IMG/VR virus record: IMGVR_UViG_3300008107_000046
Coordinates: 1-64,000 of that record
DNA from: a virus
DNA: 64,000 nucleotides
Reading direction: 5' to 3' (one strand)
Shown here: positions 58,506 through 61,043 of the stretch, piece after piece
Numbering within the stretch: the first letter of the stretch is position 1
How the letters are laid out: each line of letters opens with the position of its first letter
Notes under the pieces: generated by a model
Database searches by the model: none
Told to the model about the DNA's origin: nothing
What the model saw: the letters and a program-made list of their open reading frames with translations, nothing else
Position numbers and translations under genes: made by a program

Positions 58506-58537
58506 CGTGTACCAGTTGCTTAACTGTCCACTGCCTC

Positions 58538-58566
58538 TTGACGGGGCATTTTTTATGCGTTATATT
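58538..58566 (+). promoter_or_regulatory. Sigma70-type promoter
   Basis: TTGACG (58538-58543) and TATATT (58561-58566) are separated by exactly 17 bp, just before the RBS GGAGGTAA of the gene at 58590. It opens the small membrane-protein operon. Confidence 0.75.
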
Positions 58567-58589: not shown

Positions 58590-58889
58590 ATGATTTCCCT
58601 TCCAAACTTCTCTGAGTATGCTGAAAGCGTTAATTCTGATGAAGAATTAAACGAGACTAACTACTGCGATCAGAAAGCAGTTACAATGGAATTTACTTTT
58701 GAAGAGCATGATCTTTTGAATGATATTTTAAATCATTCTCTTGAAACAATTGATTTTGCTATTGGGTCTACTTTGATTTTTGATGCTTATGAACTTGATA
58801 AAGCGTCAGAAATTCGTAAGCGTTATGAAATGCTTGAGGGAATGAAAAAACGCTCATATGAACTTTGGTCAAAACGATTTGGTAACTGA
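58590..58889 (+). CDS. Small hypothetical protein
   Basis: A 99-aa helical protein with EFTFEEHDLLNDILNHSLET and RYEMLEGMKKRSYELWSKRF. It follows the sigma70-type promoter. It is hydrophilic apart from a short IGSTLIFDA stretch. No family is recognised. Confidence 0.6.
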   Translation: MISLPNFSEYAESVNSDEELNETNYCDQKAVTMEFTFEEHDLLNDILNHSLETIDFAIGSTLIFDAYELDKASEIRKRYEMLEGMKKRSYELWSKRFGN

Positions 58890-58891
58890 TT

Positions 58892-59017
58892 ATGATTACA
58901 ACTATTATGGCAGCGTTTGCCTTTGGTTATTGTGTTGCTGATATTGTTATCTGCATCAATAACAAAAAACGCGACAAAGAACTTTTGGAACAAATTCTTG
59001 GAGAATCTAAACGATGA
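58892..59017 (+). CDS. Tiny membrane protein
   Basis: A 41-aa protein: N-terminal helix MITTIMAAFAFGYCVADIVI then a basic tail. It is 2 nt after the previous gene and its stop overlaps the next ATG (ATGA). It is probably a single-pass peptide. Confidence 0.6.
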   Translation: MITTIMAAFAFGYCVADIVICINNKKRDKELLEQILGESKR

Positions 59018-59202
59018 AAACTTCTACTGCTCTTGGTGCTGCCTTTTTTCTAATTGTTCTTGCAACTGCTGGTCTCTTCTTTGAAGCATGGTTGCTTGGT
59101 CTCATTCTGTCTTGGTTTGGTGTATCCCTTTCCTTCTGGCAGAACTTTGCTATCATCTTCCTTGCTAACGCTATCTTTAAAACTAACGTATCTTCTAAAT
59201 GA
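59014..59202 (+). CDS. Small membrane protein
   Basis: A 62-aa hydrophobic protein with two helices, at about residues 8-30 and 35-55, joined by WFGVSLSFWQN. ATGA overlaps flank it on both sides. Function is unknown. Confidence 0.6.
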   Translation: MKTSTALGAAFFLIVLATAGLFFEAWLLGLILSWFGVSLSFWQNFAIIFLANAIFKTNVSSK

Positions 59203-59390
59203 AAAACGGATACACTCTCGTTGAACTGATGATTGTTGTTGCTATTGCTGGTATTGGATGTGCTATTTTGTTTGGCATTGCTACTGGCAATTCTGTAGTC
59301 CCAGGAAAACAAGCGTGTTTGAATGCTGGTGGAAAATGGTCTGAAGGTATTCAATACGGTCGTATTACTCAACTTTGTACTTATAATTGA
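59199..59390 (+). CDS. Prepilin-like small protein
   Basis: A 63-aa protein. The N terminus has the type IV prepilin pattern: a short leader MKNG, then YTLVELMIVVAIAGIGCAI with Glu at +5 after the processing site and a hydrophobic helix. After that a short segment with two Cys (QACLNAGG and TQLCTYN) could form a disulphide, as in pseudopilins. It is far shorter than a pilin (about 150 aa). It might interact with the host prepilin peptidase or pili. Confidence 0.7.
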   Translation: MKNGYTLVELMIVVAIAGIGCAILFGIATGNSVVPGKQACLNAGGKWSEGIQYGRITQLCTYN

Positions 59391-59391
59391 T

Positions 59392-59709
59392 ATGAAACCT
59401 ATTCTTGCTATTGTCGGCGGTGTCGTTGGTGTTGGTGCCCTTGCCTGGGGCCTTACCTATCACGAACTGATTTTTACGTCATTCTTTGCTCCTAAGTTTG
59501 AGAATGTTCGTAGGAACACTTTTGAACAGTCAAAGTCCTTCCGAACTGGTGCTGTTCAAGAACTGCAAAATATGCAGTTTGAATACATCAAAGCATCACC
59601 TGAACATAAGAAAGCACTTGCAGATATTATTCGGCATCGTGCTGTAGAAGTTCCTGCCGATGCTATGCCTTCTGACCTCCAATCCTTTATCTCTAATCTT
59701 CCTCAATGA
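59392..59709 (+). CDS. Membrane-anchored hypothetical protein
   Basis: A 105-aa protein from the ATG at 59392; the longer TTG frame would overlap the previous gene. An N-terminal helix (ILAIVGGVVGVGALAWGL) is followed by an outside-facing helical domain (NMQFEYIKASPEHKKALADI, then IRHRAVEVPADAMPSDL). It overlaps the lipoprotein gene. Family unknown; it recurs in cyanophages. Confidence 0.6.
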   Translation: MKPILAIVGGVVGVGALAWGLTYHELIFTSFFAPKFENVRRNTFEQSKSFRTGAVQELQNMQFEYIKASPEHKKALADIIRHRAVEVPADAMPSDLQSFISNLPQ

Positions 59710-60191
59710 AAACCATCGTTTCTGTTGCTGCACTTGCTGTTCTTGGTCTTACTCTGACTGGTTGTGAAATTGAACAAAATTCTGATGATACTCAGCGTTC
59801 CCAACAAGAGCGAATTCTGAAGGAAGGTACTGCTCAAAGTGGTATGCCTGCCATCAAGAACTTCCGTGAACGTAAGTTGCTGAAGCAGATTATTGAAATG
59901 CGTGACCAAGATGGTCTGGTGACTTATACTTATACTGTTCCTGAAACTACTGGTCGTCCTGTGTTTCTGTGTAATTCTATTGGGTATGGTCTTCCTGCTG
60001 CCACTCAATACACTAATCCAGAGAAGTATGAATACACTGGCACAACTCTTCCACAGGCAGATCCTAATGGTCTCTTCTCTCCTGACAGTGCCGAAGGTAC
60101 TTGGGTGATGTGTTCTGATCCTGATGGTAGTGGCAAAACCCGTCCTGTTTATGTTGAACCTCGCATTATTGTTTCACCTTTCAAACTTTGA
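59706..60191 (+). CDS. Putative lipoprotein
   Basis: A 161-aa protein with a signal peptide and a lipobox LTGC (C20). It would be exported and lipid-anchored. The mature part is hydrophilic with YTYTVPETTGRPVFLCNSIG and VEPRIIVSPFKL. Phage lipoproteins can block superinfection or act at the membrane, but nothing here shows which. It belongs to the small membrane-protein operon. Confidence 0.65.
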   Translation: MKTIVSVAALAVLGLTLTGCEIEQNSDDTQRSQQERILKEGTAQSGMPAIKNFRERKLLKQIIEMRDQDGLVTYTYTVPETTGRPVFLCNSIGYGLPAATQYTNPEKYEYTGTTLPQADPNGLFSPDSAEGTWVMCSDPDGSGKTRPVYVEPRIIVSPFKL

Positions 60192-60635: not shown

Positions 60636-61043
60636 ATGACTCGTTACAATGACCCCAACACCCCTGTTGCTATCGTATTTGGTGCTGGATTTGTAGTTGT
60701 TGTTGCTCTACTATTCTTTGGTGGGCCACTCTACAATGTTTGGCAACAATCTCTTGCTGGTAAAGCAGAACTACAGAAGGCAGAGTATACTCGTCAGGTG
60801 GCAGTTCTTGAAGCACAAGCAAAGAAAGATAGTGCTCAACAACTTGCTGATGCTGAAATCATTCGTGCTACTGGTGTTGCTAAAGCAAACCAAATCATCG
60901 GTGATAGTCTGAAAGACAATCGTGAGTACCTCCAGTATCTGTATATCACTGGTCTTGAAGATGGTAGCAAGAATGGTAACGTGACCATCTATGTTCCTAC
61001 TGAAGGTGGTATGCCCGTTCCTACTCTTCAAATGAACAAATGA
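60636..61043 (+). CDS. SPFH/prohibitin-like membrane protein
   Basis: A 135-aa protein: hydrophobic helix at about 11-32 (IVFGAGFVVVVALLFF), then a coiled coil with AEYTRQVAVLEAQAKKDSAQ and ADAEIIRATGVAKANQI, the pattern of the tail of SPFH proteins, and an end of PTEGGMPVP. It may scaffold membrane complexes. It has an RBS (GAGG). It is short compared with prohibitins (about 280 aa). Confidence 0.65.
   Translation: MTRYNDPNTPVAIVFGAGFVVVVALLFFGGPLYNVWQQSLAGKAELQKAEYTRQVAVLEAQAKKDSAQQLADAEIIRATGVAKANQIIGDSLKDNREYLQYLYITGLEDGSKNGNVTIYVPTEGGMPVPTLQMNK

Follow-up and report, generated by a model that had tools for sequence, protein, structure and literature searches.

Prepilin-like gene and its product

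Why a virus should encode a protein built like a type IV pilin subunit is the question raised by a small gene at positions 59199-59390 (+) of the DNA analysed here, the window, which comprises bases 1-64000 of a virus record of 74.7 kb. The open reading frame of 63 amino acids, read from the window sequence as MKNG|YTLVELMIVVAIAGIGCAILFGIATGNSVVPGKQACLNAGGKWSEGIQYGRITQLCTYN and hereafter called the mini-prepilin, lies within a same-strand run of small genes, and its ATG overlaps the stop of the preceding gene (ATGA). The leader MKNG (59199..59210, +), with a predicted prepilin peptidase cut after Gly4, is followed by a hydrophobic prepilin helix from mature Tyr1 to about residue 25 (59211..59285, +), within which the codon of Glu+5 occupies 59223-59225 (+). 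Residues 2-25 match the Pfam N_methyl family (PF07963) with 30.5 bits and E=2.4e-7; since this score exceeds the curated cut-off of 21.2 bits, a chance origin of the reading frame was dismissed. The N_methyl match also lies above the cut-off in 16/16 related records checked, and the gene is present as one copy per virus record.

The 63-aa product is a type IV prepilin-like protein, having a Gly/aromatic cleavage site, Glu+5, a hydrophobic helix and a short leader. The preliminary description of this DNA, which had claimed a prepilin-like frame with the leader MKNG and Glu+5 coded by a phage, is borne out on both counts, as the frame is part of a virus record whose DNA matches among isolates are cyanophages. 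The reservation expressed there, that the protein has only 63 residues, is no objection, because the mature PilA of Geobacter measures 61 aa in the PDB (2m7g).

Conservation and selection in the family

The search for homologues proposed in the preliminary description was carried out by scanning IMG/VR with the whole protein and with the C-terminal alignment, and revealed relatives in 42 other viral contigs, that is, 43 contigs with the window; a third scan of IMG/VR added no further relatives. The idea had been held open to rejection if the motif were not conserved in related phages, and the motif survives in 38/43 contigs (window included). Among the 38 motif-bearing contigs, which yield 27 distinct mature sequences, Glu+5 is present in 38/38 and Gly-1 in 37/38, the exception being L019 with Ser. 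The mature length is 59 aa in most of them and the leader length is variable.

The five remaining contigs differ in the way the motif is missing. In L033 the gene is cut by the contig end, and in L030 and L032 the front of the gene is deleted or recombined. L029 has its front replaced and the helix lost, with the C-terminal part kept in frame, and L027 encodes a non-prepilin membrane helix with Lys in place of Glu+5, again with the C-terminal part in frame. At L029:494-637 and near position 6001 of L032 the prepilin part seems to have been lost, and the C-terminal part is fused to, or lies behind, the phrog_4743-like gene upstream; these two copies are possibly decay intermediates or recombination products. 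A separate variation is seen at L064:5860-6087, where an 11-residue tandem duplication in the helix (ELLICCAIGGI x2) gives a mature form of 70 aa.

The invariant residues are encoded by many synonymous codons in the family alignment, and the pN/pS of the whole protein is 0.46. When calculated by segment, pN/pS is 0.33 for the prepilin core, 0.93 for the helix interior, 0.42 for the linker and 0.25 for residues 39-63, which is the pattern of a prepilin that is processed and bears a functional head. The core is under purifying selection, the helix is relaxed, and the C-terminus is the most strongly selected segment. The family is genuine: its proteins are constrained at both ends, and their helix for little beyond hydrophobicity.

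C-terminal knob and predicted structure

The C-terminal 25 residues, overlooked in the preliminary description, vary less than the prepilin helix. They belong to a segment, the knob (PGKQACLNAGGKWSEGIQYGRITQLCTYN, 59301..59387, +), whose consensus over the last 29 residues, PxKQxCxxxGGKWsEGiqyGRxTQLCTYN, is the best-conserved stretch of the family; its core can be written as C-x3-GGKWsEGiqyGRxTQLCTYN. The two Cys are invariant in the alignment (codons at 59316-59318 and 59376-59378, +), and a disulfide between them probably closes the knob. Being the most constrained part of the protein, the knob is expected to carry a specific function.

The AlphaFold model of the mini-prepilin is of modest confidence (mean pLDDT 73.5, pTM 0.37), and displays a helix at residues 7-28, for which pLDDT reaches 88 in the block 11-20, a short helix at 37-42 and a beta-hairpin formed by 46-52 and 55-61. 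The four-stranded sheet that makes up the head of classical type IVa pilins is absent from this model, and a two-stranded hairpin alone is predicted (pTM 0.37). Foldseek against PDB and BFVD returned no match at E<=0.001.

Searches for the knob outside the family were equally empty. Nothing significant was obtained when the whole protein, the knob and its consensus were compared by tblastn with isolated phages, and a match in Sf-FS3 lay on the antisense strand. No relative was confirmed for the knob pattern in GTDB genomes, and none was present in 151 Cyanobiaceae genomes, where every full-profile match was to the prepilin part. A DUF333-like identity of the knob was dropped because the Pfam search with the knob by itself gave no match. 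Within the same viruses there is no second copy of the knob, except for one weak partial match in G001. Across the isolated phages, the GTDB scan and the 151 Cyanobiaceae genomes searched, the knob thus appears to be confined to viruses of this kind. A near-invariant and phage-specific knob presumably binds one fixed partner.

As a minor observation, the gp8 baseplate protein of Acinetobacter T4-like phages (L073:601-663) contains KDECLKLGGKWTSG, which is like the start of the knob; such gp8 matches recur, but score no better than chance (E 0.85-6), and were rejected as homologues.

Gene neighbourhood and expression signals

Ahead of the gene run, a terminator-like hairpin overlaps a sigma70-like promoter (TTGACG-17-TATATT, a consensus match only) at 58532..58566 (+). 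It is followed by a gene for a 99-aa protein of a family common to 12 loci (58590..58889, +), a gene for a 41-aa small membrane protein (58892..59017, +), whose homologue occupies the place of the mini-prepilin in S-SRM01, and a gene for a 62-aa membrane protein (phrog_4743; 59014..59202, +), which is the most frequent upstream neighbour. Downstream lie genes for a 105-aa membrane protein, syntenic in S-SRM01 (59392..59709, +), a 161-aa putative lipoprotein (LTGC; phrog_24725; 59706..60191, +) and a 135-aa membrane protein like the C-terminal part of SPFH/band-7 proteins (phrog_11227, phrog_200; 60636..61043, +). The neighbours are small membrane proteins, with no pilus genes among them.

Across the family the neighbourhood is mosaic: the upstream partners vary by locus (phrog_4743-like membrane protein, lipoprotein, other membrane proteins), and a full SPFH/band-7 protein or the short C-terminal-like form is found downstream at most loci, usually within 1.5 kb and at some loci beginning 8 bp past the mini-prepilin stop. 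The cyanophage SPFH/band-7-like gene itself occurs as full 270-aa and short 135-aa forms in the same genomic neighbourhood. S-SRM01 has the same gene run without the mini-prepilin, and S-CREM1 and B23 possess the SPFH gene without it; no N_methyl protein was found in these three carriers of SPFH or SPFH-like genes. Since most SPFH loci have no mini-prepilin, the idea that the two genes are strictly coupled was abandoned. The knob is present in 9/80 and 16/60 related SPFH-type loci, which marks the mini-prepilin as an accessory cassette, and alternative prepilins were not detected at the other SPFH loci (five opposite-strand regex matches were discarded).

The late-type motif TATAAATA (the T4-type late promoter core) is absent near the mini-prepilin. 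Over the window (1-64000) it has 2 occurrences where 12.9 are expected; both (2797, 38066) are on the minus strand, as if the motif were avoided elsewhere. The sigma70-like promoter, together with the rarity of TATAAATA and its absence nearby, makes early expression plausible; the mini-prepilin is probably an early gene, and the signals would fit a role in host takeover.

Candidate host and its pilus machinery

At the DNA level, the isolates that match the last 24 kb of the window are cyanophages only, namely S-SRM01 (Serangoon Reservoir), S-PM2 and DSL-LC02 (Dishui Lake). psbA is present in related virus records of 225-258 kb, in one case together with a second Photo_RC gene, and the psbA protein of one relative is 94% identical to that of a lake Cyanobium MAG and of Synechococcus sp. 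1G10. The nearest phages and psbA suggest freshwater Synechococcus/Cyanobium as the host group.

In each of three candidate host genomes picked through the psbA match there are 3-5 prepilin-motif proteins, a prepilin peptidase domain and three strong matches to PilB/PilT-type ATPases, so that the machinery needed would be available in plausible hosts. This indirectly supports the host type IV pilus system as the partner of the mini-prepilin.

Proposed function and alternative explanations

The reading we favour, at a probability of about 0.5, is that this accessory gene encodes a PilD-processed mimic of a minor pilin, which joins the type IV pilus or pseudopilus machinery of the host and most likely acts there as a dominant-negative cap or adaptor. 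The mini-prepilin would enter the host membrane during infection, and the host PilD would remove its leader. At the assembly platform, Glu+5 would let the helix dock with pilins or pseudopilins of the host, and the knob, probably disulfide-closed, would be displayed on the periplasmic or outer side. As a cap or adaptor the protein would then halt or alter the type IV pilus, or the competence pseudopilus, of the host during phage multiplication; a possible gain is that fewer competing pilus-dependent phages, or less DNA, would be taken up. The virus would in this way probably insert a small component of its making into the host pilus machinery. Pilus blocking and superinfection exclusion are possible outcomes.

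Type IV pilins require Glu+5, buried in a membrane helix, to assemble and to be methylated, but not to be cleaved. In this family the residue is constant although the helix behind it changes freely, and the simplest account is a PilD cut followed by docking with host pilins or pseudopilins. The N_methyl match above the cut-off, the motif retained in 38/43 contigs, the constant distance from cleavage site to C-terminus despite variable leaders, the pN/pS pattern, the single copy per virus record, the pilus genes of the candidate hosts, the promoter signals, the precedent of phage proteins that disable pili, and the predicted fold of a helix plus a beta-hairpin also argue for the minor-pilin mimic. 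Against it, the knob appears to resemble no pilin head, since the profile matches in Cyanobiaceae span positions 2-43 only and Foldseek gave no match; moreover, L027 and L029 have the knob without the motif, which indicates either that the pilin part is dispensable or that decay has begun in these two copies. The gene is also accessory, and its neighbours are not pilus genes. It is a more speculative step, and on balance a doubtful one, to regard the knob as the docking or capping head of a superinfection-exclusion or host-control system, by which cyanophages, using a host-processed prepilin stub, would poison or retarget the pilus from within the filament and not by motor binding.

The main rival is a knob anchored in the membrane and acting without pili, an explanation that is possible, though clearly less probable than the mimic. 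Here the chief role of the prepilin-like segment would be to anchor the protein in the membrane, with the knob acting in the periplasm independently of pili, in a module with the neighbouring membrane proteins, the lipoprotein and the SPFH-like protein, for superinfection exclusion at the membrane or control of envelope stress. The knob being the most conserved part, the genes around it, which encode tiny membrane proteins, a lipoprotein and an SPFH-like protein, and the combination of membrane helix and knob without the motif in L027 all fit such an anchor. However, a plain anchor leaves the 38/38 conservation of Glu+5 within the variable helix unexplained, and the proposed module is at odds with the scarcity of the mini-prepilin at SPFH loci and with S-CREM1, B23 and S-SRM01, whose SPFH or SPFH-like genes are unaccompanied by an N_methyl protein.

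Three further explanations are much less probable. In Synechocystis, accumulation of unprocessed prepilin leads to loss of SecY and YidC and halts photosystem II synthesis (PMC8546353), and the mini-prepilin, as excess prepilin, might likewise load PilD or the SecY/YidC translocon and shift membrane-protein synthesis of the host in infection. This is unlikely: the Synechocystis effect requires the absence of PilD, a later paper attributes it to non-glycosylated PilA1 and doubts direct jamming, a conserved knob would be unneeded, and harm to photosystem synthesis seems unhelpful to viruses whose relatives carry psbA themselves. A virion or lysis component merely resembling a prepilin, to which the short knob matches in gp8 of some T4-like phages would point, is slightly less probable still, as those matches do not exceed chance and the accessory gene lies outside the structural genes with no late-type promoter motif nearby. 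Least credible of all is a passenger captured from a host pilin and now functionless; the mosaic, accessory distribution and some deleted remnants agree with it, but purifying selection over 27 distinct mature sequences, as seen in the pN/pS values, disfavours it, and no host pilin with the knob was found in the GTDB scan or the 151 Cyanobiaceae genomes.

Relation to known pilins and phage proteins

Geobacter PilA (geopilin domain 1) is the best PDB profile match of the mini-prepilin (9egp, E 6e-7; 7tgg; 2m7g), and shares the N-terminal motif and nearly the mature length (61 vs 59 aa). However, the match spans profile positions 2-26 only, so the relation to the Geobacter-type short pilin ends with the N-terminal helix; PilA has no cysteine knob, and its pilus operon setting is absent for the phage protein. 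Prepilins and minor pilins of Cyanobiaceae also share the N-terminal GFTLxE motif, with profile matches in 88/151 genomes, but their frames are larger, mostly 120-500 aa, and none has the knob.

Host pili affect motility and DNA uptake. Cyanobacterial pili further affect floating and grazing, as reported for marine strains (PMC7994388). Type IV pili are a known target of phages, which disable them by binding a motor or platform protein; examples are Tip (D3112), Aqs1 (DMS3) and PfsE (Pf4), which act at PilB or PilC (PMC8764522). These are small phage proteins like the mini-prepilin, and the effect proposed on the pilus machine is alike; the likeness is one of described effect. They are known from Pseudomonas phages, bind PilB/PilC and are not described there as prepilin mimics (PMC8764522). 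A pilin subunit made by the phage, if true, would be another route, and would tie cyanophage infection to host pili.

Small prepilin-like phage genes are already known; what is new is a family with a phage-only knob. In the literature searched, subscription papers being outside its scope, no functional study of a phage-encoded pilin or prepilin-like protein was found. Prepilin-like proteins of isolated phages include those of PAK_P3 (59 aa), Delftia phage PhiW-14 (44 aa), Acinetobacter phage Acibel004 ('PilE-like', 107 aa) and BUCT-ZZ01 (UTS52068.1, 83 aa), and the PHROG families of this type are 3433 (named 'pilin'), 10597, 11263, 13280 and 11596. The isolate proteins share with the mini-prepilin a small size, an N_methyl leader with a helix, and occurrence in large phages, but are mostly annotated as hypothetical and have C-termini unrelated to the knob. 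The window protein matches the prepilin-like PHROGs with E 1.5e-4 to 0.008, mainly over the prepilin segment, and its relative L062 matches phrog_13280 over positions 2-47 of 67 (5e-8).

The unrelated phages PAK_P3, PhiW-14 and Acibel004 bear their prepilin-like proteins at L193:901-1080, L194:901-1035 and L195:898-1221, respectively, and the distribution suggests repeated capture or invention of phage mini-prepilins. The 83-aa hypothetical protein UTS52068.1 of BUCT-ZZ01 (L192:1286-1537, corresponding to 84785-85036, minus strand) has a different two-cysteine C-terminus. Since BUCT-ZZ01 was isolated on Synechococcus elongatus PCC 7942 and has a prepilin-like gene of its own, the idea is testable in a genetic model.
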